Below are positions 25,414 through 57,647 of a stretch of DNA of 64,000 nt, piece by piece. The notes beneath the pieces are model-generated. The model saw only the letters and a program-made list of their open reading frames with translations. It made no database searches and was not told the origin of the DNA. Positions within the stretch are counted from its first letter, which is position 1. Every line of letters begins with the position of its first letter. Position numbers and translations under genes: made by a program. The stretch spans positions 15,582,001 through 15,646,000 of the forward strand of contig NC_092573.1 in the NCBI RefSeq assembly GCF_037975245.1, in the 5' to 3' direction. This DNA is from Apostichopus japonicus. Taxonomy: Eukaryota; Echinodermata; Holothuroidea; Aspidochirotida; Stichopodidae.

Positions 25414-25487
25414 TTATACCGAACGGGCAACTCGCTGTATGTAAATTGCGATTTTGGCAAAAATGTTGTAGGTGCCAGAAAGTTCAT
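25414..25487 (-). CDS. gene A last coding exon, 74 bp
   Basis: The acceptor is TTCTTCCCTTTACAG. The exon completes a split codon and then codes 23 residues, including LSGTYNIFAK and QRVARS, ending in TAA at 25414-25416. The same exon with the same length, phase and nearly the same peptide lies downstream of gene B. Conservation of reading frame but not of silent sites shows that it is translated. Without it the long frame would run into the intron and end in NFKVNITPY. Confidence 0.8.
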
Positions 25488-25601
25488 CTGTAAAGGGAAG
25501 AAGGGAAGACGATATGTTACATTATTTGTACTCTATAGATGTCGCACTAACATTTGTAGAGGTTTTTTATCTTTAGGTATATTATATATATATATAGGCC
25601 T

Positions 25602-25679
<78 letters not shown>

Positions 25680-27897
25680 GAAAACACAAGTATACTCTCC
25701 AACAAAAGATCGAGAGTAATAAGATTTGACTCATAATTGACTAATAAGGAGTTATGTTAACTTTAAAATTACCATTTGCTGGGGTTGATTCCGTCATCTC
25801 GGTATTGAATGCGTCAGCGATAGTCTGACAGAAATCCTCGGAGGATTGGTAACCCGACAACTGATAGATGGTTAGATCCTCCACAAGATCAATATGTGAA
25901 ATTAGATTTACGATTTTGTCAACAGCCTCGGAGCATTGCTCAACATCTGTAAAGATATCTAAGATGTTGGATCTCAGATTCCCCGCAATTGTCCTGTCAG
26001 AACGACCAGAAAGTGGGTCGATGTTCTCGGCAACAACCTCACAAAGCTCCTCTCGGTTATCTATCCCAAAGATGGTCAATACAAGTGACAGAACAATTGA
26101 GAACTTTTCCTCAAATTCAGCGTTCGCTGCTGCTACCTCTTCGGGTGAAGGTATGTAAGGGCGATAGTAAAATGGAGAAAAGGTGGTAGCTTCCACCTTA
26201 GGTGGCCTTTCTCTGCGCTCTGGCAAAGGACAGTAAGGATTCCACTTACATTTAGCTTCTTCCCAGTTTTCACAAATACCATTTATAGATGGAGTTGCTT
26301 CTGCCAGAAAGATATCAATGGACGTCTCGATCACATGCCTCAGTGAAAGTTGGTTGAAGGAGTAATCTAATGCCGGGCATAGCTCGCTTTTACTTACGTC
26401 AGCAAAACCGAATAGTTCCCTGGCTATGTAAATAAACACAGGAATGAAATCAAACGGTCGCAATCCAGTTAGGACCCTGTCAGGATAGGAGAAGGAGAGG
26501 CAAATATCTTCGATACCAGCAGTGTCTCGACTCTTGAATGAATGGCAAAGTCTCTTCACATCCAACTTCTCTTTTTCTACAACTGCGGAAAGAAATTCTT
26601 CGAACACTCTGCAGTATATCGCCAGTCCGTCAATTATTTTCTCGGCATGATTAGAGGCGCCTTCAATTTCTAATAAGTCTATAAATGTGAGACCAGGGAG
26701 GAATACGCCTGGAGTTTCGAATGGTCTCAAGTCATCTAACTCTACTCCCTCCGGGAGTTTGTACGGTATCGGTAAATACCCCGAGTTTGGTGAATAAGCC
26801 TGAGAGGCTTTCGCACAAAACATGGCTCTCTCTGACGCAATCGTTAGATTGAAACCAGTTATGTTTACATGTAAACCTTCCTTATCGAGAGGGGCAATAA
26901 TAGTCAAAACATCATTACAGGTTTCTTCATCTACCAACGTATGGAATGCATTTCTGACAATGGTTTCACCGAGTTCCAGATAAGCTTCTCTTGTTTGTGG
27001 TTTTGCTATGAAGTCACAAAACTCAATCCCTTTTAAGCCAGAATACTCTACTAAGATCTCCTTTGCAGCACGGATAGCAATGATCCTATCAAAGTCAATT
27101 TGGCTTATGGCACAAATATCGAATGTCTGAAATGACTCCAAAATGTCCGCTACCGGATAACTCAAGATTGAAGAGAATTGTACAAAGTATTCGGCTGTAT
27201 CCAAACTCAATAGATATCGCAATATGTCGCATGCACTGTTGGGATCAATTTCTCCTCTATTAACACTGACGTAAGCATCTGGACCGAGCCAATCCATCAA
27301 TGCAAATACAAAAGAATTAGCTTTCTTGATCCCTGTCTCTGAGCACGGGTCGTACAGATCATAACTCTCGACCTTACGTAACAATTCTTTTTCAATTTCT
27401 GACCCGTTATACTTGTAATTATAGATTTCGTTATCCTCATCTCGTTCTCGACAATATAGTCTATGGATAACGCTGATCGATCCTGCGTCTCCATTTGTCG
27501 CAAGATCCCAAACTCGACCACAAGCTTCGTCTACATTACCTTTCTCAAAGGATTCGCATACTGTTCCCACGATTCCTGGCTGTCCAAGTTGGTTGAGAAC
27601 ATCTTCTAAGACAGCTCCAAGTCTGCTACAAGCTATGTTTGCACTTTGAAGCAAATTCCTGGCATTCCATCCATCACCGAATGTCTGTACGATTTCCTCC
27701 ATGGTTACTCCTTCCACAACTTCACCAGGGTTACTGAAGAGAGCCGGGCCAAATTGGGGACCGTACCTCGGGTAGCTGTTGTAGTCTCCATAGTCGTATT
27801 CCACAGTGTCCTCTTCAGTAGTAAGTTCATGGATCACGGACTGGAACAAGGACTCAGTTGCCAGTGTTAGAGTGAGAAAGACATGCAGCCAATACAT
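25414..27897 (-). CDS. gene A: secreted two-module cysteine-bearing protein, family unrecognised
   Basis: Two coding exons: 27897 down to 25773, then 25487 down to 25414, joined across a phase-1 GT-AG intron (25488-25772), giving 732 residues. The ATG at 27897 aligns with gene B's start; the longer frame begins at a TTG. Residues 1-20 form a signal peptide, followed by an acidic Tyr-rich linker. Module 1 (about 54-380) has FSNPGEVVEG, MDWLGP and SYPVADILESF. Module 2 (about 393-700) has FETPGVFLPGLTF, CPALDYS and DPLSGRSDRT. Cysteines recur at matching places, and NGS, NIT and NLT are possible glycosylation sites. Function is unknown; secretion and a mostly helical fold are inferred. It is a tandem paralogue of gene B and more distantly of gene C. 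Confidence 0.8.
25488..25772 (-). other. gene A last intron with TA microsatellite
   Basis: A 285-bp phase-1 intron with donor GTAATT and acceptor TTTACAG. It is mostly a broken TA repeat (about 25586-25676). Gene B's equivalent intron is 742 bp and has no such repeat. Confidence 0.75.
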
Positions 27898-27913
27898 GTT
27901 TACTTCCAAAAAC

Positions 27914-29213
27914 CTATTAGATAAAACGTTATTAAACAGCTTCTAGAACAATTCATCTGACAAATATTAATGCACTTTCTGAACATTTCCGCAACTGGAC
28001 CGGTTGAAATTGTCGGAGTTTTTTTTCTTTAGTAATGTATCCGATATAGTTTATATAATGTATTTCGCCTACGCATGAAGAACGATGTTCATGTGGAAGT
28101 TTTCATAACATGTACATGAGATCAATAGCCAGAACCTCCATGTCGAGGAAGTTTGGCAATGGCGTAGCCAGAGAAGGGGACAGGGGCAGGGGAGCAGAGT
28201 GCTCTCTCCTACAGAAATTGTCAGGGACGAAAATTTTGAGGCAAAACTAAAATTTCACGTACGTCAAATCGTATATAAATAGATTGGCAATATTTAGAGT
28301 TGGTATACACAAATGTTGTTAAATGATGAAAATAACGATGCAATGTGCATTTATGCTCCTTACCAAAGCAAACACTTCCCAAAGGAGATGGGAAATACCC
28401 ACCCCGTGAACCAGTTAGACTGATCGACAGATTAATTGGTAAAATGAAAGCATAGGTCTTGGAAACTGGTAGATAAGAGACGTTCAGATGAATTAAAGCC
28501 AGGAGAATTTATTCCTGTTTATACCTGCAATGATGGGAACTGGCTTATCAAGAAGCTCTTGGAAATTCTGCCTCCGAAGCTAGTTTTGAAACATTTGTCA
28601 ACACTGTGATCAAACATGATATTTTCAATGTTATTAAATCTGGATAAAATATCACGTGAGTACATATATAGGTGCATGGCGTTACTAGGCCGGTGCGAAA
28701 TCCTGAGGCCCGGTGTCAAGGATCAAACATATGTAAAAAATATCATCCAAGCCCAAACCATGCTTGGGATTAGGTGAAATATAGCCTTTTCTTTGGGGAC
28801 CAATTCCTATTGCTGCACCGGGCCAGGTTGCTCCTTGCTATACGCAACTATACACAATTTGCCATTGCATAATGTAATAATAAAGGATTAACGATGACTT
28901 TCATCATAGTTTAATGCATTGCCAAGTTCTTAAAGTTATATTTATCTGCACGTTTTGACAAATTCTTAAATTTGAAACTATATCACGTATCCCTTGGTAC
29001 AGATCAGCAGTAACAATAACATTTCTGGAAAGATGTAAATTAGCAATTGTTTATTCTTTTGCGACATTTCTTATTAATTAAGCAACTTCGCTTACCTATC
29101 GATTCTATGTTGTAAAATAATTTGTATTCTCATGACCAATTGTAATTTCTTGTAACTAATAAACTTATTATAATACTACTATTATAACTTATTATTAAAG
29201 TTATCATACTCAC
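27914..29213 (-). other. probable first intron of gene A
   Basis: The acceptor ATCTAATAG lies 16 bases upstream of the ATG. A strong donor, GTGAGTAT, lies at 29213 (minus strand), giving an intron of about 1.3 kb. The intron holds repeat debris: a GGCGTAGCCAG tip near 28160 and a CCGGTGC-containing fragment near 28690. Gene B shows the same arrangement, which supports it. Confidence 0.5.
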
Positions 29214-29385
29214 GGTTACTCAACGCCAACAATATCTGCAAAAAACGTAGTGAAGAAGCGTAATGCAAAACGTACCCCTACAAGCACATAAATGAAGGAT
29301 CATTGAGAGCTTGTGATCACGTATGCATGAATTTGATACCGTAACAGATAACTTCATGGGCGTGGCCTATATATATATATTAATA
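29214..29385 (-). promoter_or_regulatory. putative gene A promoter and untranslated first exon
   Basis: Reading on the minus strand: TATA-rich sequence (29369-29382), then GCCACGCCCATG (29355-29366), then about 140 bases to the donor at 29213. The same 12-mer lies 135 bases upstream of the matching donor in gene B. CCACGCCC is a KLF/SP-type GC box. The transcription start itself is not determined. Confidence 0.45.
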
Positions 29386-31582
29386 ACGAACTGTGCAAAA
29401 AAACATTAGTTACCTTTTGACCGTAAGGTATACTACTTGTAAGATAAGCTTTATATATGTAATTTTGTAACAAAACACCCCTCGTCAACTTTAATCGTTT
29501 CCTTTGAAAGTACTAAAAACTTGATCGTTTATTAAAATTTCAATTATTTTCATCTCAAAATGTCGATCTTTCACTCGTAGAATTTTGTTGAAATGATAAA
29601 TTTTTATCTCAAATTGTTACAGGTTCATCGAAATTGCGAAGTGTCATCTCAAACATTACATGTTTCAGCTCTTTACTTCAATGATTTTTCTAGGAAATTT
29701 AACGGTTTCATCGCAAAATTCGAAACCTGAAAAATATATCGTTAAGTTTGAAGTACCTCTAGAAATTTGGCGTTCCACCTCGAAGGTAGTATGAAGTTTG
29801 ATCCCAATTTTTTCGCATTTTGTCTCAGTTTTCGTCAATGACATTTGAGGATGTTGTCGTGTACAAGGTGTGTCGTTCATTGGCATTCTTTATTGGAACA
29901 AACATAGATTTTTAGGTCAAACATGCCAGCAGCCGGTTGTCATCGTCCAACCTAAATGATGCTCTAGACTTTGGTTGATTGCTACATTCATCGAGCTGTA
30001 ATATAATTGAGTTTGGTTATTTGCCGTGTAAACTTTTCATTCCTCACCAAGCCGTTTAAAAGCCAGGATATTGATAAATAGATCCCGGTTATTAATAATC
30101 AACTTAAATATATTTTTTTCTTTTTCATGATACGTGACTGTTTGTTTGGTTCAGTTTATGATGTTCAGTTACGTAGATGGACTGAAATTCGATTAGAACA
30201 AACAAACCACAGGAAATAACATCCTATTTATTCCACATGGAATCTATAGTCTCAGGGAAATTTAAGTGTCACGAATCTTTTCGATATTATCAAAAATGAT
30301 TTAGTATCTGTAGATACGATGTCAAGGTGCAAACAGGAAGTACATATAATTGGAAAATTTAGCTATTTGATGTTATTTTAATTTAGACAACTTTGGGCCA
30401 ATAACAATAGCGTAGGTCACTTTTTCACTGGTGAGTAGAGAGGCTTTGTTGACGTCATTGACCTTGAGACGTTGTTTGCGTTCGAATTCGTTGGAGTTAT
30501 TCACTGCCGTCATAGGGGAGGGGCATAAATTGGCTTTGAGATAATTTTGTATTGGTTAGACTGCTTTATTGCGAAATGGTGCGAACTTACGAAAAACATT
30601 TTTATGTTAGAAATTTCAAGACCTATAAAGCATTATCTTAATTTGATTTCAAAAGAACACGTTCTTAGGGATCAAGTTTTACAAATCTCATTATGTACAC
30701 AACAAATACATATTGTCATCTACATCATGTTAGGGTTGCAACCTAGTTTTAAAATATTGTCCGATGGCGGTTGTAGTATTATTGATGGTCGTTATACTTA
30801 AGTGTTTAGTGCGATGCACCCTCGATCAGCCGATGCCAATGTCATGAAAGGAGCTATCCACTATAGTACGAAAATGTACCAACCATGGAGAGCCATGTGA
30901 CGTGCTCCCAGGTGCTACTAACGTATTATTTAACCCTCTGTCGGTTCGAAATGATAAGCATTCCGTAGACAAACAACTCCATTATAACGGATAATTACGG
31001 AAAATTTGAGAATAATGACTTACGTTGGATGAAAGCGTTGGTTAGATTTACTTTCCGTCTCATAAAAATAAGCTTGATCTGTACTGACCCTGGTTTCCTA
31101 TTAGAATATCTACTCCCAGTCTTATAGATTGCGTACGGCGGTCATATCATATCATACGCGCTTGTTTACTTGCAAAAACGGCTAGGAGTCAAAGGAAAAA
31201 CGAATCGTGTCGTCTGTTTCTCATGTCTATGTACATTTGTGTACAGTCCTGACAAAGGGAAAATGTACCTCTTGGCTAGATTTCACTGTTCGCGTAGCTT
31301 CACAAGGAATGTGGTAGCAATGAGTTACTTCACTAGTACTTTATTAATCATTTTATTAAAGCTGTAGTTTTGCTTTAATGGAGGTAGTGTAGTATATCGG
31401 TGCTCGTTATATTTAAGTGTTTATTGTGATGCACCCTGGATCAGCTGATGCCGAGTTGTAGATCAGAATAAGAACACGATATGACAAGTAGTCACGTGGT
31501 AGATCAAGGGTACATCATTCCCGCAACGGTTCTTTTAGTTTTTGTTTTGATTTATTGATGTTTTTTATGCTAGTCCGTGTAG
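29386..31582. other. intergenic, includes a short direct repeat
   Basis: A roughly 70-bp sequence ending in AAGTGTTTA.TG.GATGCACCCT..ATCAGC.GATGCC occurs near 30767-30840 and again near 31389-31455. The open stretch at 30547-30801 starts at TTG and has no recognisable features. No gene is supported. Confidence 0.5.
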
Positions 31583-32191
31583 CATAGGCGTACGGGACCA
31601 TAACAGTTTGGGGGGCAAAAACTTTTGTGCCCGAATGATCCTGTGACACTATCTAAGCGGAGCGCCACCATGAGTTGGCGCGTAGCGTACCAGAAATTCT
31701 TTTGCAAAAATGCCTCTCAGATTGCCGGAAATGGCACTTCTGAGGCCTTACAAGTTGCATCTAAACATTCTTTTTTATAATCTCACGTTTTAGAAATTTA
31801 CACTTCCCCAATAATTTGGTAAATTAGAAGAAGAATGTCATGTCACCACGATTGTGAGCAGCATTCCTTGTTAATAATTTTGGGCGATAGTGCAAAAAGG
31901 GTGGTAGCCCAAATGAGCTGCGCTTACGGTGGTGTTACACAGAAATATTCGGGCATCATGATGCTAAATAAAGAAAATCATTAGGCCTATATTAATATTA
32001 ATGTCACAAAACAAATAACACAAAACGCTCTCCACAGAATTGTTGGGCAAAAATTTGAAAAAGATTCGGGCAAGCTACTGCATATTTATATATATATATT
32101 TTTGTCTCCTCTTTTGCCCGAATTTCTTGTCCTCTGGAAAATTTAGGGGGCAGTCTGCCCCTCCCCCTGCCCCCCGCCTCGTACGCCTATG
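31583..32191 (-). mobile_element. hAT-type MITE, copy 1 (609 bp)
   Basis: The ends are CATAGGCGTACG and its reverse complement. The flanking octamers CCGTGTAG (31575-31582) and CCGGGGAG (32192-32199) agree at six of eight positions, a decayed 8-bp target duplication. The core shared with the other copies (AGTGCCATTTCC, then GCGCCAACTCATGGTGGCGC) lies at about 31650-31745 in reverse orientation. No coding frame. Confidence 0.65.
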
Positions 32192-35100
32192 CCGGGGAGG
32201 GTTGTAAGGGTCACGTTAAAGGTACAAATGTTGAGGCGGAAGTTAAATACGTTGCTAATGAATTCCCATATCAGCTTTAATGCTAATAATAATATGAAGA
32301 CACAATATATTATCAACGTTGAGAAAATTTGTGATCTTCCAAAATAAACAGCTATACAGAGACTTTAAACGACGTTTAATAACGGCAGTGGGGTACACTG
32401 GATTTCAAACGTGTGTGTTGGAGATGCTAATCTAGCCCCCCCCCCCTCCCTGTCCCCATTGATTTAGGTAGTGGCTGGGCTTTTATGGAAGGGACAAAGG
32501 CGAATGAAGAATTTCACAAAGGGAGGGTGTGGCCATTCGGTATTTGAAGGAGACTCCCATGTATGGAGTTAAAGACAAATAAACATTTAGACGCCAAATG
32601 GTGCAATCAGAGGCATATTTCAAGTTAGGTCTGTAGTGAGCTGGCAACGCATAGTTGTGTTACTAAATAATTTTGTATGAGCTTGTACAACCGGAGATGT
32701 ACACCAGTAGCAGTGGTCTAATTCGTCCTCGGCATAATGTTATAATTTTTTTGACTGAACTATCCCCCCCCCCCTCCCCACCCAGTTGACGATGGAAGGT
32801 AGGTACCATGACCCCGGCCCGAGCGCATGCCACTGACTCTATGGGTTACCTCGTCTGCATGTAACTACGAATCGAATGAAATGCTGGGCTTTATGGTGAC
32901 TTACGTTAGTCATCGGAACTTAGAATGTGTGGAATGACATAATATGAACTTTATATATAAACCAGCTAAATTGACGTTATCATACATTGAAGTGGGGCAC
33001 GGTATTACTGCCCACTCAACGAGATAACTCACTTTGTATAACGTAAAATAAAATACATGTAGTTCTATGGTATCATATTAAGAAATCTCTCGCAATGGAA
33101 TAGATGTTTAAGGCTTAGTTGTTTGATGAGCTTGTTCCGTTATCTCTAACTCATATACCAATAATGGTGGTAAGTTTTGTGTCTCCTTGACGGCTCGATA
33201 CGGCTTCGACGAATGATTACAAAGCTCGGACTAATCGAATGTTGTTTAAATGAAAATAGTAAAATCGCAACTGGAAGAATATCGGATTAGGGTAAGCATT
33301 ACGGTGATTTGCCTCTTTATTATACGTAAACAGATTTAGAAACGAAAAGATCGATCGGGTTTAATGAAATTATTGGTTGAAACCTTTACAGAAAATTCCT
33401 ACAATTTTACTTAAACGAAGTAGAAGTAATATCTTCACACCAGCTAATTCCACATGTTTGTGATTTGTAACCCTTAACATGGCTAACTACAGAATAAAAT
33501 TAGTCACACGAATATTTAATTTGTTTGAAATGGCTTGTCAGTCCCTTCAGAATCTTTAATGTAGGACGCTTTGACTTTTCTATTCATTTTACTTGCTTTC
33601 GTCTTTCAAAGTATTCCACGTGTGTATACCACATTTAATAAATCACAAAATATCAAAGATAGGCAACCCAAAATGAATAATATGTTAACATGGCCACAAG
33701 GCTTAATGAATTCAAAAACACTTTGAGGTTTTCTCTTAGATATGATATTGAAATAGCTATATCCATAATATTCACTTTGTGTTCTAAATATGAGTTCTTA
33801 GCGTTCTTAATGTTGAGAACGTTGTCTTATAGTAATCAAACTTGAGCATGGAAATGTTTAATGACTCTCGGTAAACATCAAGTGATCATACTTGTCGCTT
33901 TGATGTATAGGCATACTTCTATGGGCGGCCATAACTGCAAAAAACAATTACAAAATATAAAAGTACATTATTAAACATGTTCCCAACCAAACATAACAGT
34001 TATCAAACTTGAAATAAAAATTAAACACAAAGTGTACAATTAAAAAGTGGGTTTTCGAAAAGCATTACCCAAAGAACTTGAGGCAACCACACAATATTAA
34101 TCCACTTTGCATGCAGAGGATACTACACAAATTAAATGTTAGCAATTTCCAATGGAAGATTGCATTCATAACAATGTAAATCAATATACGGTTGTAATGA
34201 ACAGTTTAATATGTCCAAGAATAGTATACCATTACCAATCGAAAAACAAACATGAGAGTGCTGGGGTTGACCCTGCTGAATGTGTACATGCGTCATTGAT
34301 GCAGCGTGGTAATTTCATGATAACATATTGAATAGCATATCTATGTAATTTCCCCCATTGATTTACACATTACTAAATTGCCAAAACTTTGAATGCATCT
34401 TGTCTCTAAGTCCTTGTAGAAGATGCCACGAGGTAAATGCTACCATTTACTGTACTCCAGCAGAAATATGGCCATTCAATTTCCCGTTAGACATGACCAT
34501 ATTGATTGTTAGCAATGCGACAACCGTAAGTTTTCGTCACTTGTAATACTAATATCATCTTCATATTAATTTAAGTACTGCCTACTGTTTAATTAAGTCA
34601 ACTGTTTATTTTGGATATTTTGAAATTTAATGACTCCGATTTTGATTTCGAACTAGATTTTGTTTAATTTATATTTTGGTTGATTTAGAAATGTTTATTA
34701 TTCTAGGAAATATACTTTCATTTAGCATTTTGTAATTTATCTTTCATTTTGCGGTAATAGCCACCCAAAAAGTCGCAGCATAACGGCTGACTTTAATTTA
34801 TTAGAGAAAGATAAATAAAAACCACCAAAACCAACCGCAATGTATACCTAGGTACTTAACATCTACAACATGATGTTTCTCTAAAGGGGCTTTTATTTTT
34901 AACTGATCAAAAACTCGTGAAGGATGATTAAACAAAGAAAAATTGAGAAATCAAACAAAACAGACTGTAAAAAAGTTGTTCCGAATCAAACATAAGTTAG
35001 TAGTAGGTCCGTCGCCGATCTAAGCACCATGAACCTATTTAGGAAGGAAAAGTAAATAGAAGACATTATTCTTAAATCATGTATGCATACCAATGTCAAT

Positions 35101-35576: not shown

Positions 35577-35577
<1 letters not shown>
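32192..35577. other. intergenic, no supported gene
   Basis: A long AT-rich stretch with homopolymer C runs near 32437 and 32765. There are repeated ACTCG and GTACT words at about 35220-35330. No coding signal on either strand. Confidence 0.45.
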
Positions 35578-37043: not shown

Positions 37044-37117
37044 CTACAGAGAACGGGCAACACGTTGTACGTAAACTGCGACTTTGGCAAAAATGTTGTA
37101 AGTGCCGGATAGTTTCG
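37044..37117 (-). CDS. gene B last coding exon, 74 bp
   Basis: The acceptor TTTCTGATTTTTTTCAG precedes an exon that completes a phase-1 codon and codes 23 residues, including LSGTYNIFAK and QRVARS, ending TAG at 37044-37046. Length, phase and peptide match gene A's last exon. Differences between the two are mostly conservative (I/V swaps, E/K at the first residue). Confidence 0.8.
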
Positions 37118-40100
37118 CTGAAAAAAATCAGAAAGTATTTTATTAAAATTCAAATATTACTTTAACGGCCTACTAGATGTCATAGTCTTTTGTTAACAGG
37201 ATGTACTATGTATTGTAACGTTTCTTTTCTAAACAAGCTCATCACTATCTTGTACATTAGTATATAACATGTATGTAATAGGCTTACACAAAAACGTCAA
37301 CATGGCATGTTGTGCATCCAAGCTGTGAAGTTAGTATCTTTTAAAGCCTCACATATAGCATTTTCGGGCGATAGCAATTATTTCCATTTTGTTAATAAAT
37401 CAATTATTTTACAAAATCAAAATGGACATTTTTGACAGGGTAGGGAGGAATGTCATAGTAGGTAAGACGTGGATATTATGATTGTTACTGTATTATTTCT
37501 ATCAAAAGGGACCTGACAACATTTTATTAAAGGATGCCTTTAGGCACATTCTAAAATTCATATGACATAGGAGGCAAAAAAGAAAGAAGAACATGACAGT
37601 TAGTAATGTTTCTGTTGATAACTTTGAAATATATTAAATATCTGGAATGCTCCTTTAAGACTTAGTTGCTGAAAACCTAAGTTGGCTCCTCAATACTGGC
37701 CGATACGTTAATGTCAATCAATTATTTTATGAAGTCTAATAACTCAACCATATCATCTTCAATCGTTACTATGGCGTTACTAGACATTACAATATCTCTT
37801 CCTCGCTGTAGGAACGTCAAATATTTACTGTGAGTTTACAATTCGAAAACTGAAATTACCATTTGCTTGGGTTGATACGGCAAGCCCTCCTTCCAATGCA
37901 TCAGCGACAGCCTGGCAGAAATCCTCTGAAGTTTGGTAACCCGTCAGCTGATAAACAGGATTGGTATTGCCGTCACTTAGAATATCTTGCAGATCCCTCT
38001 CTGAGAGCAGGCTCAAAGCTATGTCAACAGCATTGGAGCATCGCTCAATATCTGTAAAGATATCTAAGATGTTGGATCTCAGATTCCCCGCAGTTGTCCT
38101 GTCAGAACGACCAGATAGTGGGTCGATGTTCTCGGCAACAACCTCACAAAGCTCCTCTCGGTTATCAAAGCCAACGACGGTCAATACAAGTGACAGAAGG
38201 ATTGAGAACTTTTCCTCAAATTCAGCATTTGCTGTTGCTACCTCTTCGGGTGATGGTATGTAAGGGCGATAGTAAAATGGAGAAAAGGTGGTAGCTTCCA
38301 CCTTAGTTGGCCTTTCTCTGCGCTCTGGCAAAGGACAGTAAGGCTTCCACTTACATTTTGCTTCTTCCCAGTTTTCACAAATACCATTTATAGATGGAGT
38401 TGCTTCTGCCAGAAAGATATCAATGGACGTCTCGATCACATGCCTCAGTGAAAGTTGGTTGAAGGAGTAATCTAATGCTGGACATATCTCGCCTTGACTT
38501 ATGTCTGCGATACCCAATAGATCTCTTGCTATGTAGATACCAATGGGAACTGGATTAAGTGGTCGCAATCCTATTGGGTGATCATCACTGTACGAGTTAG
38601 GAACGAGAGCTGTCAGGCAAATATCTTCAATAAAGGCAGTGTTTTGGCTCCTTAGTGCATCGCAAAGTCCCTTCACGTCAAACGTATCGTCTTCTATAAC
38701 CTCGGAAAGAAATTCTTCGAACACTATGCAGTATATCGCCATTCCGTCAATTACTTTGTCGGCGTGATATGAGGCGCCTTCAATTTCTAACAAGTCTATA
38801 AATGTGAGACCTGGTAGGAATACGCCTGGAATTTCGAATGGTCTCCAGTCATCTAACTCTACTCCCTCCGGGAGTTTGTACGGTATCGGTACATACCCCG
38901 AGTTTGGTGAATAAGCCTGAGAGGCTTTCGCACAAAACATGGCTCTCTCTGACGCAATCGTTAGATTGAAACCAGTGATGTCTACATGTATACCTTCCTT
39001 ATCGAGAGGGGCGATAATAGTCAAAACATCATTACAGGTTTCTTCAACTACCAACGTATGGAATGCATTTACGACAATGGTTGCACCGAGTTCCAGGTAA
39101 GCTTCTCTTGTTTGTGGTTTTGCAATGAAGTCACAAAACTCAGACTCTTTCAATTCAGAGTACTCCACCAAGAGCTCCTTTGCAACGCGGATAGCAATGG
39201 TTCCTTCAAAGTCAATTTGGCTTATCGCACAAATATCGACTGTCTGAAATGACTCCAGAATGTCCGCTGCCGGATAACTCGAGATTGTAACGACTAGTGT
39301 CACGTAATCAATGACGTCGATACTCAACAAATAACGAAGAATACCACATACACTATAAGGATCAACTTCACGTTGATAAATATTGGAGTAAACTGATGGA
39401 CCGAGCCAGTCCATCAGTGCAAAGACAATATTGTTGACTTTCTTGTTGCCAGTCTCGGAGCATGGATCGTACGGATTAAAATCACCGATCATTGCTAATA
39501 CCTCTTCTTCCGCTTCAACAAAAGTTGTGTAATCTGTCACGTTAAAGTCTTCAGCTTCACCAAAAGTTGTGTAGACGTAATCTGTCAGGTTAAAGTGGTA
39601 ACCGTAGCCATAATTGTAGTAATCATCAGACCTTTCTCGACATCGCATTCCAGGAACAAGACTAAAAGAGCCTTCCTTTCCATTTGTTACCAGATCCCAT
39701 AAACCATTGCAACCTTCTTCTACACTACTTGTCTCAAAAGTTTTGCATACGTCTCCCACGATACCTGGTTGGCCAGTTCTTTCGATGAGGGCACTTAAGT
39801 CAGATCCAAGTGTATCACAAGCTATGCTCGCACTCTTAAGCAAATTGTCGGCATTCCATCCATAACCGAAGGCCAGCACGACTTCCTCAACGGTTAATCC
39901 TTCCACAATTTCACCAGGGTTGCTGAAGGGAGGACTAATTCTGGGACCGTAATTCGGGTAGTTGTAGTAATTATATTCGTGTTCCACGGTCGCCTCTTTA
40001 GTTGGTCTTGGACCGTAAATCGGGTAGCTTAAGTAATTATATTCGTATCCCACGGTCGCCTCTTCAGTGGTTGTTGGAATTAGGCTAAAAGATTGGACCA

Positions 40101-40149
40101 AGGAATTGGTTGCCAGTGTCAGGGTGAGAATAACATACAGCCAATCCAT
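37044..40149 (-). CDS. gene B: secreted two-module cysteine-bearing protein, family unrecognised
   Basis: Coding exons run 40149 down to 37860 and 37117 down to 37044, joined by a phase-1 intron, giving 787 residues. The signal peptide is at about 1-20. A Tyr-rich segment is duplicated: EATVGYEYNYLSYPIYGP at 31-48 is followed by a similar copy at 52-69. Module 1 (about 75-415) has FSNPGEIVEGLT, MDWLGP and SYPAADILESF, plus a further duplicated FNLTDY/FNVTDY patch at about 186-207. Module 2 (about 438-750) has PGVFLPGLTF, CPALDYSFNQ and DPLSGRSDRT. It is very close to gene A in some blocks and clearly diverged in others. Secretion is supported; function is unknown. Confidence 0.8.
37118..37859 (-). 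other. gene B last intron
   Basis: A 742-bp phase-1 intron with donor GTAATTTCAG and a strong polypyrimidine acceptor. No gene inside. Confidence 0.75.
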
Positions 40150-42245: not shown

Positions 42246-42619
42246 ATTAAATGGAGATGTTATAGCACTGTCTTTCAGATACCGACAGACACTATATGTG
42301 TATAGGTTACCTTGTGTTGATTTTTTTCCCGTTTATGTGATTAATTATTACTTAATTTAAGTTTTGATTTCTTTTAATTTTAGATTAACTTCTCTCGCTC
42401 GACTTGAACTCCAAAATGTGCAATTACTTTCGATTAACTAGTGTTACAAAAGAAGCTTAATGCCTATCAGCGAGAACAGTAACATGTTCAAAGAAAACAA
42501 TCAATAACTACAATCGTACCAAAACAACAGCAGAAAGCAGATATATTCATAAAAGGTATTACCAGGACGGAATCTTAAAGGTCATGCCACCATTGATAGC
42601 TAAGGATCTTTATAAGTTA

Positions 42620-43575
42620 GTTATGCTGTCACCATATACACTAGAGGGCATCTTAAAAGTCACATTGCTGTCACCATATACACCAGAGGGCATCTTGAAA
42701 GTCACATTTCTGGCACCATATACACCAGAGGGCATCTTGAAAGTCACATTGCTGTCACCATATACACCAGAGGGCATCTTGAAAGTCACATTGCTGTCAC
42801 CATATACACCAGAGGGCATCTTGAAAGTCACATTGCTGGCACCATATACACCAGAGGGCATCTTGAAAGTCACATTGCTGTCACCATATACACCAGAGGG
42901 CATCTTGAAAGTAGCATAGCTGGCACCATATACACCAGAGGGCATCTTGAAAGTCACATTGCTGTCACCATATACACCAGAGGGCATCTTGAAAGTCACC
43001 TACACTGCCACCATATACACCAGAGGGCATCTTGAAAGTCACCTTGCTGGCACCATATACACCATATGCATCATATATACACCATATACACCATACACCA
43101 TTCATCTTGAAAGTCACCCACGCTGCCACCATATAAACCAGAGGGCATCTTGAAAGTCACATTGCTGGCACCATATACACCATATGACCATATATACACC
43201 ATATACACCATACACCATTCATCTTGAAAGTCACCCACGCTGCAACCATATATACAAGAGGGCATCTTGAAAGTCACATTGCTGGCACCATGTACACCAT
43301 ATGACCATATATACACCATATACACCATTCATCTTGAAAGTCACCTACGCTGCCACCATATATACAAGAGGGCATCTTGAAAGTCACATTGCTGGCACCA
43401 TATACACCATATGACCATATATACACCATATACACCATACACCATACACCATTCATCTTGAAAGTCACCTACGCTGCCACCATATATACACCAGAGGGCA
43501 TCTTGAAAGTCACATTGCTGTCACCATATACACCAGATGTCATCTTGAAAGCAACATACGCTGCCACTATTTAGA
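42620..43575. repeat. 42-bp minisatellite with higher-order units
   Basis: The unit contains ACCATATACACCAGAGGGC and ATCTTGAAAGTCAC. About nine regular 42-bp copies run to 43040. From there to about 43490 the repeat grows into units of about 110-124 bp with extra TACACCATA words. Because 42 is a multiple of three, both strands stay open and give 14-residue repeats; these are not supported as proteins. It begins about 380 bp upstream of the gene B promoter. Confidence 0.95.
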
Positions 43576-49620: not shown

Positions 49621-50318
49621 TTCCAACATAGCACAATGTATCTGCCTAAGTGCCTAACCTTTGTTCATAGAAAGTATTGATGTTGTTGATCTGTATTATG
49701 GAGACTTGAATAGCGATCATAGTGGCGAATGAATGTGTGTTTTGGCGAGTAGAGTTTTAGTCACGGTCGCCAAATAGCGAGTACTATATATTAAAACATG
49801 TTTCGAGGCCTGACAACCATTAAAACATGATTTATCAGGGTAGAAATCATGGATTCTTTCCATACATGGTATAAGGATTTGCCATATTGAATACAGGAAT
49901 CCCGTTGCTAATGAGTTAAATATCATTTGAGGTCACTTGAGGTCAAACTCTGAAAACCCTTTCACATGATATCAAACGATAGGATTCGTGGATACGTCTC
50001 ATACCTGGTGTGCAGATGCATGATATTGAGCACAAGACCTCTACTGTTTTTGGTGGAGGTGTGTATTGCCACGCACAGTAGTCAGACCTGGTTTTATCAT
50101 GCCATGGTGTAATTGTACTTCAAAATAGGGGTTCGGGCAATTTACATTGTAACAGCTATTTCTGGTTAACAAGCAGAAGTCTAGTGAAATGAAGCCATCG
50201 AAACCTCAATGCGTTTCGCATTCTGGTTTATAGAATGTTGACAAGTGTCATCACCGCACGTGATATATAAGAAAATCACCAATCAGGTCTCTCTGGTATC
50301 ATTTCACGAACCGTATTA
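49621..50318. other. intergenic, no supported gene
   Basis: Short chance frames only. It ends at the first copy of a duplicated 230-bp block. Confidence 0.4.
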
Positions 50319-50547
50319 CTTTTCTTCATTAGTCTTTCAGTTCGTGGCCATATAAATATTGTGACGTCCATACATATTGATCTATTGTCCAATAGCAGAC
50401 GCCCTTCTTGCATTGCTAAAACACTGCTAGGTTACTATGGGTACATAACAACTCACGATACTTGTTCTGCTTTAGAACAGAACTTGAAACAGGCAGTGTC
50501 GTACGTCTGGACAACGGTTAGGAAGATATAGTACATATTCAAGGAAA
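50319..50547 (+). repeat. duplicated block, copy 1
   Basis: About 230 bases from TCTTCATTAGTCTTTCAG to GATATAGTACATATTCAAGG recur at 52523-52769 with small indels. The block has no LTR-like ends or frame. Confidence 0.85.
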
Positions 50548-50737: not shown

Positions 50738-51967
50738 CATGGGCGGCGATCCTGGGGGGGATGGGGGGGATATATCCCCCCCTAATGAAAATGGGTGGAG
50801 GGGATGTAATACACCATATCCCCCCACCAAATGCCAGGAATAAGAATATTTTCATGCCTTCATTTATGCATCATCGCGAATGTACGGCTCTTTTTAGCTT
50901 CATTTCTCGCCTATACCATAAACGCAGTGCGATCTTTTCAAATAAACCGTCTTTATAAAGCAAGAATAGTTGACTGTAGGCTTCATTGGCCCTATAACAA
51001 CAAAATGTATTATTGCGCTCACGTTATTGATATAGTACATATATGCACCCTCATAGTATTCATATAGGCCCTATAGTAGGCCTACACACGTACATGTTCC
51101 CTCGAACAGCTGAGAATCTCATGTTACCAGGGTAATGCTTAATTAGGGGCGTCGGAGCGGTTCGCCGGACCAATATTCACGGCGCAAAAAAAAAGGAGAA
51201 AAAAGTAGCACTAAGAAGAAAAAAAGGCAAAAAATAAAGAACCAAAATGAAAGCATACTTCAAAATGTGTTTCAGAAGATTAATCGGGTACAAAAACAGA
51301 CAAGGGAGAATGCACAGAAGGAAAGCTCGGGAAGTGCCATTTCCTGCAATCTGGGAGGCATTTTTTCAAAATTTTCTCCATTACGCTACGCGCCAACCAA
51401 TGGTGGCGCGTAGCGTAGTTTGACCTTCCAAACGTCCCCCACCCCCCCCCCGATAATTATGGTAGATGGCCACACTCTGATCTTCCGTACCAATCCCAAA
51501 TAGCTTCCGACGCCCCTGTTAATACACGTACGTTTCACCTGGATGCCCTAGAAATCGGTACCTAGGAATGTAACTATGTGTAATTGTGTATTGCATGTGT
51601 ATAGGCCTATAATAGCCTGCATGAGGCCATTTTCTTCATCGAATAATATAAAGAGCTCTCGAACATTCTAACGTAGCGCCTGAAACAAGATTGACAGGGG
51701 CAATTTTCCCAAAATAACACCCGAAATTTAAAAAAAAAGTATTTTGGATCCTGCTTATGAGATATTTCGGACACGAAATCCCTATTTTAAAGTTGGGTAT
51801 ATGCCGCTTGGAAACCTCGGCAAGTGCCGTTTCCGGCCATCTAGAGGGTTTGTAAATCCCAAAATTTTCTTGTACGCTTCGCGCCAACTCATGGTGGCGC
51901 TACGCTTAGATAGTCAAAAAGGTCATATCCCCCCCCCCCCACTCGGAAGTACGGATCGCCGCCCATG
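50738..51967 (+). mobile_element. hAT-type MITE, copy 3 (outer element of a nest, 1230 bp)
   Basis: The ends are CATGGGCGGCGATCC and its reverse complement, flanked by perfect 8-bp duplications GAAGTGTG (50730-50737 and 51968-51975). Its core (AAGTGCCGTTTCC...GCGCCAACTCATGGTGGCGC) lies at about 51812-51905. A second element is inserted inside at 51144-51518; without it this copy would be about 855 bp. Confidence 0.8.
51144..51518 (+). mobile_element. hAT-type MITE, copy 4 (nested, 375 bp)
   Basis: The ends read AGGGGCGTCGGA and the matching TCCGACGCCCCT, followed by G at 51518. The core GGGAAGTGCCATTTCC...ATCTGGGAGGCA and GCGCCAACCAATGGTGGCGC is at about 51328-51415. I could not match an 8-bp target duplication cleanly, so the left boundary may be off by a base or so or eroded. 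Confidence 0.65.
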
Positions 51968-51975
51968 GAAGTGTG

Positions 51976-52449
51976 GAGAAAATATCTCACTAACCGAGTA
52001 CGATTATAAATTAACATAGTTTGTCATGGATTAGAATATTTGAATGTTGTTTTTAAATATTCAACGAAGTATTTCTACCTTATAATATTATGCGTAATGT
52101 GTTGAGTTCTAAGTTTCCAAACATCCTGATCCAGACATATTACTTCACACGTTATTGGATAATCGACAAATTAAAAGGTCAACTGGACTACAAATTTTCG
52201 GCTGCATTTTTCCTCTTTTAAGTTTTTACTTGATTTCCATTCCATTCCGTATGCAAACTGAAAGTATACGTGTATTATTATCATTATATTACAATATACC
52301 TAATTAGATCATGACGGTTAGCATAGCTGAGAAGGTAACTAATTTATAAGTGTATCACTGTCCGGGTATGGATCCCGATAAAAGGAACTGGACGTCTGTC
52401 GGGCTTTCCCTGCTGGCTGTGGTGTCAGGGATCAAATACCCCCCCCCCC
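51976..52449. other. intergenic, no supported gene
   Basis: AT-rich spacer between the nested MITEs and the duplicated blocks. Confidence 0.4.
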
Positions 52450-52835
52450 CCTCCCTCCCATAAACCATCTGTCGACTGTAGTAGCTCACACGTCATTTTT
52501 ATATCTTTGTGTTATTATTTTTCTTCATTAGTCTTTCAGTTCGTGGCCATATAATTATTGTGACGTCGTATTCATACATTATGTACGATATTAATCTATT
52601 GTCCAATGGCAGACGCCCTTCTTGCATTGCTAAAACCCTGCTAGGTTACTATGGGTACGGTACATAACAACTCACGATACTTGTTCTGCTTTAGAAAAGA
52701 CCTTAAAACAGGCAGTGCCGTACGTCTGAGCAACGGTTAAGGAGATATAGTACATATTCAAGGACTTTACCCCCCCCCCCCCCATAAACCATCTGTCGAC
52801 TGTAGTACCTAACACGTCATTTTTCTATTTTTTGT
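52450..52835 (+). repeat. duplicated block, copy 2, bracketed by a second repeat
   Basis: The 230-bp block recurs at 52523-52769. It is bracketed by two copies of a roughly 55-bp sequence (C run, then ATAAACCATCTGTCGACTG) near 52450-52510 and 52778-52835. The order repeat-block-repeat points to a local tandem duplication rather than independent insertion. Confidence 0.75.
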
Positions 52836-53175
52836 GGTACGTATGATAATGATTAAGGTATCCCCGAACGATAGTGCAAACGGTTCTTTTCGGTTAATTG
52901 ATTTACATTGTGTTATTATTCTTGGGACAAGAAATTGCTGTTTTCTCCCTCTACCAGACCCATTAGGACCCATTGCAACAATTGTATTAGGCAAATATTG
53001 GAGGCATCATATACAAACAAGTTTCAATGAACATGTGCATATCCCACAGACTGTCGAATGTAAAAGTTTACCATGTTTTACTAATTTTCTAATGATAAAA
53101 AATATGCAAATGCAAAGGTATAATTGTAACTATCTTTTCACAGATGCGACACGTATCTCCGTCAATGTGTTCTAA

Positions 53176-53398
53176 ATATACCACGCCAAACCAATAAGCT
53201 GTCATTTTCTTCAACTGTATCGAATTAGAATTGGTCTTATTAATCTTCCGCATCAACATCTCATTATGTCTGTAGGTTACTTCATGATAAGCTCATTTCA
53301 TAAGAAGGAATCTCAGTAACATCTTAACGACAACCAACTCAAAACCTTCATTAATATAGTAAGTTATGTTTGTCTAATACTGCCTTGCTGGTGAGACT
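53176..53398 (+). promoter_or_regulatory. possible gene C promoter/first exon
   Basis: ATACCACGCC near 53177-53186 resembles part of the GCCACGCCC box of genes A and B. A good donor, CTTGCTGGTGAGA, lies about 210 bases downstream, near 53390. Pairing with the acceptor at 54217-54219 would remove an intron of about 0.8 kb. The match is partial and the spacing differs from A and B, so this is weak. Confidence 0.2.
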
Positions 53399-54223
53399 TG
53401 TTCTAAAGTTGACAGAGATATCTTAACAGTACATCTTATAACATGTGGACAATATACCAGGCTGGATTCAAGTTTTGTATGGGTCTTGTTTGTTTTGTTT
53501 TTTGTGCCATTTCGTAGTTTTGTTGTTGCTATATGCATAGTACCAACCTCATTTACAAACTCCTATAAATCCCATATATACACTGAGTGATATTTAATTA
53601 TCGATCTGTCACACTCGAAAGGATGCTACTACACTCCTTTTAAAGTAAATCTCACTATAAGAGTTGATTGTTTAATAGTATACACCCATTCAGATATCAT
53701 GGATATGTACTTCAACTTGCTCTTGAGTTAATCCAAGGCACCGACATCTAACCACGGGGTAGTAACGATGTAATATTACTTTGTCCGTGTACGAGCTTAT
53801 TGGTCCCTCTAATAAGCTTCTCGTCGCTAATGGATAATAGCAACTACTGTTATTTGTTTAATAATCCAACTAACGTCAAACCGCAGAGAACCGGTGATGT
53901 ATAATGATTATGCGTAACTGGGATAACAAAATGAAAACAAGCAACAAAGATAAAATGGGCTTTACCATGTGTGATTGATACGAACTGTTAGTTATCTCTC
54001 ATTAGGAACCAGTCAGCTTAAATTATTACACATTGTAGCTCTAACTAACAGGACAAGACCCAAGGGAGCCCTGCGTGGGCAAGATTGGATACGAAATGGA
54101 TCAAAATGGATCTCATATGACTTAAAATTGGATTGTCCTTACCTTGTCAGAATGATAAGATTTCCTTCAACCATATTTATCATTATTGTTATCTTTTACA
54201 CTCTTTTCAACATTTTCAGGAGC

Positions 54224-57200
54224 ATGAGTACCAGTTTTGGGGAGATGGATTGCCGAATCATTTCAGTAGTTGCTTTTGCATTGATGTTGCCAATCTGTGC
54301 TGCAGTTGAACCCATGGTTTGGGAAATCGATTGGAATGATTACCAAACCATTGATTTCGAAAACTTCGAACCTTTTTCATCACCAGGCGTGATCATCGGT
54401 GATTACACCTTTGAAAACACCATGGATGTCCTAGGAAGGGCATGGGTGGCAAGTTCCCCACAGGAAATCATTGGTCTCGTGTGTGTCCACTACGGACCAC
54501 AACTATATTCGCTCACAAATGAATACGGTACAATAAGAGATACGTGTAATCACATTGTAACCTCTCTAAAATGGGGAACGATTTCTGACATCGTGGCGAG
54601 ATGTGAAACTGAATGGGATAATCTTACCTTTGGCTCGGACGAAAACAGCACTTTATTTACTCTAAACGAATGCTATACCACTGTCTACGATTATCCTATT
54701 AGCCCGTCAATTCCGATCGAATTCCAGTATGCCGGGGACATAATTGCAGGGGTTTATTCTTCTTGTCCAGGTGGATACGGACTAGGAACGGACAGACTGT
54801 CTGCTCTCGCTTCCGGTGTACTTGACTGGTTTGGTCCATCGATTCTTTCCCTCGCCAACGGAGATACATATCAAACCGCTTTTGCCGGATGCTCCATTCT
54901 CCGGTATGTTCTCACTATGGACATTACAGACCTATTGAGCGAAGTGACCGAGTTACTTTCATATCCCATTGCAGACGTCCTCGAGTATCTTCAGTACCTT
55001 CAAGTTTGTAGCAAGCTTGACGAAAGTGTGGATCACAGTGAGGGATTCAATCTCATTTTTGATTTGCTTCTTTCATTCTCCGGACGAACATCTACTTCAA
55101 TGTGCTCTTTCTTCTCAGCTTCCAATACGAGAGATGATTATGAGGAAGAGGCCGCAAACATTGCAGACAACATACTTTCTGTAATCACTGATGCAGCTCT
55201 CTGCCGAGACCTTATGGCAGAACTTGCGACTTCTACCGATGCGATTGATATCCTGGAATCAATAACGGGAGATGACCTGAGCTTGGCGGCAAACCGAAAC
55301 TCTCTCTGCAACGACATAGTGGATGCTTTCACGACCGGTTCATCAGCTACCTTGGAAAGTTACTCGTTACCAAATGGTGTCGACATAAATCAGTATGATT
55401 TCTTTTCTGTACCCGGAGAACTCCTCCCAAACTTAAACTTTGCCGAGGCGCTGACCATTTTTGGAGCAATGTACACATCGAATAGCGTAGCTGATGCTGC
55501 TGTTGTTTCCTGTGATGTCTTTGAGAATTTCCTCGTTGACAACGACGTGTTTTATGGCATTGACTTAGCTGAATTATGTACTTTCGCCAGAAACGACGAC
55601 CTAGCAGACATTGAAAGTGTTTGCTTGGAACAGAGTATTCCTGTGTATAATCAGGATTATCCTCTATCCTTACGACAGTTTGACCCACTGATGACGGCAG
55701 TAGACATGGGGAGGAAGCTGCTGGGAGTAGAAATGTTTAGTCAAAGTGACTTTTGCACAGCCTTAGATTCTTTCGTGCATTCCGACCTCAACCTTCGATC
55801 TATTGTATCGTTTGGTATCAGTAGTTTTACGAAGGAGGGCCTTCCTTCGGCTAACGATATCTGCCAAGATTGGACCAATGTCATATGCTACTTGGGTCCT
55901 TATTGCAATGCTTACACACCATACCAGGAGATGGAACAAACTAACTACATGGACACAGTGACTGCGATTCAAGAGTTGATTCTCATGGCCTTGGGCTATT
56001 CGACTCGGTCCGCACTTTGTAACGAAATTTCTGCTGGAATTGACACTCTTAGTGGACGTGCAACCGACGACGTCATTAATGACATGACATCAAAGATTTT
56101 GTACGTATTTGAAAACACTGCTCGCTGCATTGAAGTGGCCGATAAAGTCATTGAAATAGTATCATCTGAAATGGGGGCAGATGGAGGTACATCGGACCCT
56201 GAGGAACTCATATACATGGTAACAGGACATAATACTACAGGAGTCTGTGATATTGTTGCCGCCACGTTTCCTTCGTTTGGTGAGTACATCAAATGAAAGA
56301 TCATGAGTAGTATCCCAAATCATGTGATAGAATGTAAAAAATGGCCACTTTTGCTCAAATATTGACAGCCTCCTTAATTCCACCCAGATACATTTATCCC
56401 CTTTATCGAGCTGTATATTGGTTATATCTCCTTATTGTGTGAGATAAAGCTGAAGGCAGCTGTGCAACCAAAATTATTGTACAGTTAGGGGTATAACATG
56501 TTATGACGCCCAAAGGAATCCTATGGGAAGGAGTGGCCCCTCATCTTTGAGACAGTTTGGTTAACAGGAGGGTGCTTAAATGCAAAGTGGTATTATTTTG
56601 TGCCACTTCTGAAACATGGTTGAAGAATTTTCGACTGTTTAGATTATACCGCACTTATATGTTATACACTTAAGAATTGTGCGATAGGATTTTTGTAACA
56701 TTCGGGGGGGGGGGGAGGGGGTAGGGCTCATCCTCCCTCATTATATTCTGTGGGGTGGGCTCAAGCTCCGCCCCCCCCCCTCCCAGAAGTATACGTGGTT
56801 GCGTCCCTCGTTAGAGGCTTACCTACTTAATTTCTGAGATAATGTTGGGGGTAGGAATGCTGTTCAGGAAAGTATTTGTATATATCAATTGGTATGATAT
56901 TGTAGGTTTGTTGTGCACAAGTATTTTGAAAATATTGTTAAATAACAATGTCACCTGCTTAGATCTTGTTTTTTTATATATTTCACCGTCGAGCCGAGCT
57001 CTTAACTAGAAAATCAAAATTGTTGGGGTTCCCACGTTGCTGTTTCATAGTAAATCATGATATAGCTATATCGTAGTGTTGTATCAGTATTTACGAAAAG
57101 GGGGGAATGTCTCGATTACACAATCCTACCAATTTGTGTCACACGTCCCTTCAAAAACTCCATGATGATATAAACTAGTCCACATTTATCTTACCTTTCT

Positions 57201-57647
57201 CTGCTGCTAATCTCTGTATGATTGAATGAAATACCGAAAAAAAGTGAAATCCTATCAGGTTACAGTGTTTGATGTAAGAGATACCTAAAGGATAGACAAT
57301 GAGGTTCAAGGTGGATGCAAGGACTGACCTCCTAACAGTAGCTGGGTCCTTCTAACATGAGCCCTCGTCGTCAGTTTGACATATTTAATTGTGGATGCAG
57401 TCAACGGTATATGTATATTAAAACTATAGTATTCAATATAAATCAAGCACGTTATAACTGCTTTGTTGAATATATTTTTACGGTCGAAACAGGTGTTCTA
57501 TAAAGGTTTCTTTGCTTTCATTTGTACTAGTATGTTGTAATAACATATTGTCATTTTTGATTCCAAATAACAGGCTTACAAACTGCACAGAGCAGCTTTT
57601 TCGTGATCATTGCAGCTATACTGGTCGTCTTCTTCTCACGGGATTAG
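54224..57647 (+). CDS. gene C: two-module cysteine-bearing protein with hydrophobic C-terminal tail, family unrecognised
   Basis: Exon 54224-56279 ends at a consensus donor, GTGAGT, in phase 1. The last exon is 57574-57647, after an acceptor AATAACAG. A strong acceptor at 54217-54219 shows that the open frame upstream is intron, so the start is ATG 54224 or, better for a signal peptide, ATG 54245 (MDCRIISVVAFALMLPICAA), giving 702 residues. Module 1 (about 45-365) has FSSPGVIIG, LDWFGP and SYPIADVLEYL. Module 2 (about 388-675) has FSVPGELLPNLNF, RKLLG and DTLSGRATDD. Candidate glycosylation sites are NLT, NST and NTT. The tail contains SFFVIIAAILVVFF, which suggests membrane or GPI anchoring. 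It is a distant paralogue of genes A and B, divergently oriented from B. Function unknown. Confidence 0.8.
56280..57573 (+). other. gene C last intron
   Basis: A 1294-bp intron holding MITE-like debris. GCCACTTCTGAAACA and GTTGAAGAATTTTCGACTGT near 56600 match a fragment near 24560, followed by G and C runs at about 56704-56780. Confidence 0.7.
57574..57647 (+). CDS. gene C last coding exon, 74 bp, hydrophobic tail
   Basis: This exon joins in phase 1 (G plus GC gives Gly) and codes 23 further residues ending SRD and a TAG stop at 57645-57647. It has exactly the length and phase of the last exons of genes A and B. The peptide is quite different: 14 uninterrupted hydrophobic or small residues near the end. 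That tail fits a GPI-attachment signal or a short transmembrane anchor. Confidence 0.7.

Follow-up and report, generated by a model that had tools for sequence, protein, structure and literature searches.

The window analyzed here, a stretch of 64,000 nucleotides from Apostichopus japonicus, contains three full-length paralogues, gene A (minus strand, 25414-27897), gene B (minus strand, 37044-40149), and gene C (plus strand, 54245-57647), whose proteins consist of a signal-like N-terminus followed by two modules that are homologous to each other and about 300 residues long. No sequence family fitting them was retrieved by searches of Pfam, NCBIfam, PHROGs, or the PDB. The chances are about even, in our judgment, that A, B, and C are unnamed extracellular or cell-surface binding proteins, made of stacked helical modules with four disulphides and evolving by birth and death.

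Gene Plan and Two-Module Repeat

The genes follow one plan, with splice sites in A, B, and C predicted from the sequence: a single large exon for the ectodomain, within which the signal-like start lies in all three, a phase-1 intron, and a short last exon of 74 nt that encodes the tail. In gene A, the large exon (25773..27897, minus strand) encodes a signal-peptide-like hydrophobic N-terminus recognized by sequence and hydropathy (aa 1-20, 27838..27897), an acidic Tyr-rich leader, module 1 (aa 54-392, 26722..27738; invariant cysteines at aa 90, 114, 126, 223, 262, 294, 327, and 361), and module 2 (aa 393-708, 25774..26721; invariant cysteines at aa 429, 451, 466, 507, 542, 619, 655, and 690). 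It closes with the phase-1 donor AATG|GTAATT and is followed by an intron of 285 nt (25488..25772) and by the terminal exon (25414..25487), which ends with the stop codon at 25414 and encodes the amphipathic cationic tail (D)ELSGTYNIFAKIAIYIQRVARSV-stop. Gene B, on the same strand, has a large exon (37860..40149) with module 1 (aa 75-437, 38839..39927), module 2 (aa 438-763, 37861..38838), and the same donor, AATG|GTAATT, then an intron of 742 nt (37118..37859) and a 74-nt terminal exon with an amphipathic tail (37044..37117). The terminal exons of A and B are identical at 59 of 74 nt; past the stop, 27 of the 58 nt that align over 90 columns are identical. On the plus strand, gene C comprises a large exon (54245..56279; phase-1 donor TTTG|GTGAGT) with module 1 (aa 44-386, 54374..55402) and module 2 (aa 387-678, 55403..56278), an intron of 1294 nt (56280..57573), and a terminal exon (57574..57647, with its stop codon ending at 57647) for the hydrophobic, GPI- or TM-like tail (G)LQTAQSSFFVIIAAILVVFFSRD-stop, with a mean KD value of 3.49 over 12 residues. 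The three proteins are acidic (pI 4.05-4.38), and their signal-like N-termini would fit the secretion that a first-pass annotation of this DNA had put forward. Judged by sequence, their paralogy is far above chance: identity over nearly the full length is 65.8% between A and B, 26.4% between A and C (E 2.7e-73), and 27.1% between B and C (E 4e-80).

The same annotation had described a two-module repeat in each protein, which is borne out by alignment. Sixteen cysteines, eight per module in a 3+2+3 layout, are invariant in all eight members aligned (including C3b and C3c, 88% alike), and with eight members per side the whole of module 1 matches module 2 by HHalign at 96.3% (E 1.8e-9, 265 columns). 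With three sequences only, the whole modules gave 8.4% at a score of 19.3 (E 0.001). Among five of the 30 column-shuffled controls, two outscored this match, and block-wise and eight-member alignments were needed. For the same three sequences, the N blocks match at 93% (E 3.5e-7) and the C blocks weakly at 3.5% (E 0.012, score 18.6, with a highest score of 16.5 in 120 column-shuffled runs); the middle blocks gave no match by HHalign. Eight of nine module-1/module-2 pairs reached Smith-Waterman scores that no more than 11 of 500 shuffles with fixed cysteines equalled. The clearest pair is module 1 of C with module 2 of A (score 101, 0/500), and the sole non-significant one is formed by the two modules of gene C itself (score 45, equalled by 110/500), contrary to the earlier statement that gene C displays the repeat most plainly. 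The motifs and blocks quoted in that annotation lie where it had placed them, and the cysteine register of its aligned blocks agrees with the family alignment. As to the opening PG-x-x-x-x-G/N-L, which had been ascribed to both halves, PG is present in six of six modules, although the strict form PG-x4-[GN]-L is found in four, with module 1 of A and module 1 of C deviating. A reading of the window in all six frames gives three more strict matches, which are noise, and the motif alone was rejected as evidence. Helical periodicity is present in 61% of protein windows versus 26% (maximum 37%) in 100 shuffles, a pattern that would fit the helical fold suggested previously, and we infer that the modules are mainly helical, each pinned by four disulphides.

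The gene plan extends to other members of the family. A candidate phase-1 donor closes the large exon in the eight members inspected, including C3b, C3f, C17, C1, and a giant relative, and in 10 of 11 members an acceptor-like AG precedes the ATG by at most 70 nt (judged by eye, without a chance control). The tails are hydrophobic in C and amphipathic in A and B. Candidate hydrophobic last exons for C3a-f, chosen by their hydrophobicity, sit on weak acceptors with 9/15 pyrimidines and a pair of AGs at a distance of nine bases, and the candidate tails of C3a-d extend beyond the hydrophobic stretch; for C1, C17, and the giant, no tail was identified. The tail of C and the candidate tails of C3a-f may represent GPI or membrane-anchor signals, two indistinguishable options, and A and B would have exchanged a membrane anchor for secretion, with a tail that is amphipathic and may bind to surfaces.

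Distribution, Age, and Mode of Change

The earlier count of three genes holds for the window, although genome-wide the family takes up at least 16 loci plus a fragment on five large contigs, with 12 open genes, four broken copies, and one fragment in 17 places, a lower bound. Its proteins range from 628 to 2143 aa. The longest, the giant, has six modules joined by Tyr/Asp-rich linkers and containing 9, 8, 8, 9, 9, and 8 cysteines, respectively. Modules 1-5 match the joint HMM with E values from 4e-6 to 2e-24, and module 6 does so at E 2e-88 with the joint HMM, which contains it, and at E 3.7e-60 with the module-2 HMM, which lacks it; among the controls, five shuffles gave a best E of 0.2, and the giant read in reverse one of 0.051. 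In another relative, whose open frame spans 1,586 codons, one module only was read, and the fragment, C11, corresponds to one module (E 1.6e-29).

That no named domain family accommodates these proteins, as first proposed, agrees with the profile searches. The best Pfam match of A, B, and C was DUF6568 (E 0.021, 15.1 bits against a cut-off of 27.1), eight members of the family gave a best E of 0.029 and nothing above the cut-off, NCBIfam returned no family for A, B, and C, and PHROGs a best E of 0.12. Of the 30 and 61 pattern matches in the viral and prokaryotic collections, respectively, none was a relative, as expected of an animal gene, and Rfam and ARAGORN gave no matches and no tRNAs, respectively. 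Of an origin from a transposon, the Pfam scans of A, B, C, and the eight members found no sign, be it a transposase, a reverse transcriptase, or any further domain of mobile elements. No account of such a family was found in the literature searched, even if one may still be in print; the outline of one report names the Hox, Sox, THAP, and SRCR families (PMC13228809).

The age of the family raises a question: Is it young and still duplicating, as the first-pass annotation held? For A, B, and C it is not, since A-B dS is about 0.4-1.1 outside near-identical tracts and A-C dS is saturated; the young copies lie in the cluster on contig C3, where C3b-e differ by a dS of 0.04-0.07. The tree places the split between module 1 and module 2 before the gene duplications, and the family seems to have had its two-module form before it spread. 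Silent divergence between A and B is a mosaic, with a segment statistic equalled by 2 of 5000 shuffles, and the two genes have been re-homogenised in part, probably by gene conversion.

Among C3b-e, replacements are clustered: 27 of them fall within the 50 codons that start at aa 421 (equalled by 1/5000 shuffles). The ratio of replacement to silent changes is 23:3 in aa 417-466 versus 100:42 elsewhere (Fisher 0.04, binomial 0.09, for a window picked post hoc), it is 0.77 as whole-gene N/S, and the best N/S enrichment was equalled by 174 of 5000 shuffles. Strong positive selection is not shown by these values, and positive selection in the C3 genes is only suggestive. The variability profiles of A/B and C3 correlate weakly (r 0.24, equalled by 52 of 553 circular shifts), which is not significant overall for a profile common to both clades; in both, variability is high near the N-M linker of module 2.

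Possible Functions

Birth and death, homogenised tracts, and clustered replacements are often met in recognition proteins, and the pattern of change described above resembles, by analogy, that of proteins in surface recognition. In the binding proteins to which we give even chances, a stiff helical rod would display the variable linkers between the N and M blocks so as to bind a ligand outside the cell, be it glycan, microbe, a second cell, or a secreted matrix. Hydrophobic tails would anchor C, and possibly C3a-f, to the membrane, A and B would be secreted with their amphipathic tail while exchanging sequence by gene conversion, and the family would act as a changing set of recognition or adhesion proteins at the surface. 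A more specific form of this reading, which we consider rather doubtful, is that the eight-cysteine domain builds a repertoire with which the sea cucumber recognizes surfaces, in immunity or allorecognition. The modules, stacked by two or more, would owe their diversity to duplication, gene conversion, and selection acting at the same N-M linkers, and one interchangeable terminal exon would switch between anchored and secreted forms.

A structural role is possible at somewhat longer odds: helical modules might tie a gel of mucus, cuticle, or matrix to the surface of the cell and change under relaxed constraint. The helical pattern with hydrophobic or amphipathic C-terminal tails, the six-module form of 2143 aa with its Tyr/Asp-rich linkers, and a dN/dS near 1 without clear excess would all suit such linkers, but the replacements are clustered rather than spread, and the proteins match neither the Pfam nor the PDB sequences of the mesothelin group. 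Gamete or egg-coat recognition, with fast change, gene conversion, and duplication driven by sperm-egg coevolution, fits the evolutionary pattern as well as immune recognition does, and we regard it as unlikely. Secreted carrier or storage proteins, with a disulphide-locked helical pocket for lipid or metal, would share the acidic pI, abundant cysteines, and helical pattern, but they are very improbable given the membrane-type tail of C and the candidate ones of the C3 genes, unusual for soluble carriers, and the absence of albumin, saposin, and lipid-transfer families from the Pfam scans.

No counterpart of the eight-cysteine module is present in the libraries of protein families and structure sequences searched, and the module is sharply defined by 16 invariant cysteines, a common intron phase, and a separate tail exon, fit for a profile with which to search every echinoderm. 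Were it to act in barrier or immune recognition, the innate immunity of echinoderms would gain a further type of domain; otherwise, the module would still be a candidate new fold in a farmed species.

Comparison with Known Systems

P58-A/B, skeleton proteins of sea urchins, were considered as a possible relation. A p58 orthologue is present in a sea-star skeletal proteome (PMC5460417). Another report describes a PSP94-like tandem cluster in A. japonicus, whose domain is compared to PSP94, a protein of 94 residues (PMC5638244). Our family is, by that description, likewise a cysteine-defined one arranged in tandem in this species, but its proteins measure 628-2143 aa, and the Pfam scans of A, B, C, and the eight members found no PSP94 family.

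Mesothelin, otoancorin, and stereocilin are extracellular and predicted to be mostly helical, with mesothelin GPI-anchored and a lectin-like binding suggested, according to their description (PMC2628672). The family studied here, which is known from sequence, would resemble them, so described, in its extracellular location and helical pattern, and the hydrophobic tail of C and the candidate ones of C3a-f, unlike the amphipathic tails of A and B, may be GPI signals; it differs in its eight invariant cysteines per module, its one-exon ectodomain, and the lack of a sequence match. For the ARM-type helical superhelix expected of that superfamily, helical periodicity is what the sequences show. The Mesothelin profile of Pfam is absent for A, B, and C at E <=10 and for the eight members at E <=1, the PDB profile searches returned no mesothelin chains, and membership of that superfamily has no sequence support. 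The anchoring of a gel can be imagined for these three proteins, too.

GFR-alpha and GAS1 carry helical, Cys-rich GDNF domains in tandem and are GPI-anchored. A GDNF domain has about one third the length of the present module, and the GDNF-domain family is missing from the Pfam scans of A, B, C, and the eight members. In the SpTransformer (185/333) genes of sea urchins, which are clustered, fast-evolving, and partly homogenised, a single large exon encodes the mature protein; their proteins are Gly/His-rich and disordered, with the leader in an exon of its own. Set beside them by description rather than by sequence, the family of A, B, and C shares the one-large-exon plan and the partial homogenisation, whereas its proteins are Cys-rich with a helical pattern, and their signal-like start lies in the large exon, not in a separate first exon.

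Genes A, B and C and their predicted exon plan

The three paralogous genes of the window, A (25414-27897, reverse strand), B (37044-40149, reverse strand) and C (54245-57647, forward strand), are related along their entire length, with long open frames of 733, 775 and 773 codons counted from stop to stop; a tblastn search of the window revealed no fourth copy, the next best match having an E value of 0.26. A 64-bp stretch downstream of A and B, 87.5% identical between the two, reads as a predicted terminal coding exon. This predicted exon measures exactly 74 nt in each of the three genes and is joined in phase 1, its ends in A and C being the outer coordinates 25414 and 57647. A and B share 59 of its 74 bases, with seven codons showing silent differences and six showing replacements (dS 0.58, dN 0.13); the predicted introns of the two genes, of 285 and 742 nt, agree at 140 of the 272 bases aligned, and the sequences past the terminal stop at 27 of 58. 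A candidate phase-1 donor closes the large exon also in several relatives found elsewhere in the genome and named by contig (C3b, C3f, C17, C1 and the giant gene of C13). At the other end, 10 of the 11 members scored by eye, without a control, have an acceptor-like AG no more than 70 nt upstream of the ATG, which suggests a candidate intron in the 5' untranslated region.

The predicted tails take two forms. That of gene C is a hydrophobic segment, with a mean KD of 3.49 over 12 residues; those of A and B are amphipathic and basic, with hydrophobic moments of 0.70 and 0.67, exceeding 99.7% of the windows in their own proteins. In the relatives, a search that selected for hydrophobicity pointed to candidate hydrophobic last exons, lying about 390-405 nt beyond the large open frame in C3a-e and about 2.0 kb beyond it in C3f, and identified none in C1, C17 and the giant. 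Given this selection, and since C3a-e are 87-95% identical in DNA around the candidate exon, independent support comes solely from the equal length of 74 nt in A, B and C and from the conservation of the exon between A and B.

The window, located at C13:15582001-15646000 and with a GC content of 38.0% (the published A. japonicus assembly is described as 671.6 Mb in 34 scaffolds and 23 chromosomes, with 38.56% GC; PMC10344927), also contains a non-LTR retrotransposon at 867-3560, one reading frame cut by four stop codons, with a reverse transcriptase piece (E 1.1e-17) and an endonuclease-like piece below the Pfam cut-off (E 0.0011). Further elements are a tandem array of a 42-bp unit at 42540-43557, open in frames on both strands and overlapped by a second repeat spaced at 110-118 bp; a two-copy direct repeat at 50314-50545 and 52513-52764, about 2.2 kb apart and 92-96% identical in three pieces; and a TA-rich inverted repeat at 58136-58675, its 143-nt arms 97% complementary and 254 nt apart.

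Two modules, a wider family and a six-module giant

Each half of the proteins comprises an N, an M and a C block. When three sequences are compared, the homology of the two N blocks is clear (93%, E 3.5e-7), the match of the two C blocks is weak (3.5%, E 0.012), even if its score exceeds all 120 shuffled controls, and no similarity is visible between the M blocks. With eight members (A, B, C, C3b, C3c, C3f, C1 and C17, the pair C3b and C3c being 88% alike; the set leaves out C3d, C3e, the giant and C11), the two halves can be aligned over their full length (96.3%, E 1.8e-9), bearing out the proposal of the first-pass annotation that each protein carries two homologous modules. This alignment contains 16 invariant cysteines, eight per module; the hydrophobicity averaged over it has its maximum at helical periodicity in 61% of windows (shuffled mean 26%, maximum 37%), and strand periodicity gives the maximum in 10%, versus 29% after shuffling.

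The same annotation had counted three genes, which proves too few. Searching the genome (671,581,487 bases, 35 contigs) with A, C, C3c, C17, the C11 fragment and the giant as queries, we found, all counts being lower bounds, at least 12 loci with a single long open frame (A, B, C, C3b-f, C1, C17, the C13 giant and C11, the last with 1586 codons, of which 1.1 kb was read), at least four further loci, C3a and three on C13, in which stops or frame breaks interrupt the reading frame, and one 47-aa family fragment on C3. Among the broken copies, loci L037, L043, L044 and L046, the last three all lie on C13 and are mutually 92-97% identical in DNA over long stretches.

The giant (locus L036:1370-7822, equivalent to C13:8417869-8424321) consists of one uninterrupted frame of 2151 codons, or 2143 aa from the ATG, which is long for one animal exon. 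HMM hits and the number of cysteines indicate six modules; its modules 1-5 were absent from the HMM, module 6 was included but scored independently, and the borders were set by us. The module tree forms two groups, one with module 1 of all eight members and giant modules 1 and 5, the other with module 2 of all eight, giant modules 2, 3, 4 and 6 and the C11 module; support for the split is 96/98, with six long branches of unsure placement. The giant accordingly reads m1-m2-m2-m2-m1-m2, and the split makes it probable that a two-module ancestor existed before the family spread. In the whole-protein tree, A, B and C do not form a group alone, since the last two modules of the giant join A and B, possibly by long-branch attraction.

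Old and young duplicates

In evolutionary terms, the family had been considered young, and this holds for one part of it. C3b-e, with dS of 0.04-0.07 and dN/dS of 0.72-1.11, are young copies by this measure, whereas A and B show dS of about 0.4-1.1 outside two near-identical tracts, indicating an old duplication. The closeness of A and B (66% identity) is largely due to these tracts (about aa 250-430 and 502-660), near-identical even at silent sites: codons for identical residues differ silently in 25 of 301 cases inside and 65 of 211 outside. The tracts were drawn post hoc; a segment scan correcting for this choice was reached by 2 of 5000 shuffles, and the longest silent-identical run by 88 of 20,000. 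Gene conversion would be the natural reading, the alternative being strong local constraint on silent sites.

Replacements among C3b-e cluster in module 2, where the N block ends and in the N-M linker: 27 fall within 50 codons from aa 421, a concentration that 1 shuffle in 5000 reached. An excess over silent change is no more than suggestive there. At the matching place 13-15 of 30 residues differ between A and B, one among several divergent stretches, and the two variability profiles as wholes show no significant correlation.

Relation to known families

Searches of Pfam, NCBIfam, PHROGs and PDB sequences gave no significant match, in agreement with the first-pass annotation, which could place the fold in no named domain family, and viral and prokaryotic sequence collections yielded no relatives. 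We hold with high confidence, for both anatomy and family status, that this is a real family unlabelled in those four libraries. By analogy, its architecture and pattern of change point, with moderate confidence, to binding at the surface or outside the cell, and more tentatively, with low to moderate confidence, to a role in recognition.
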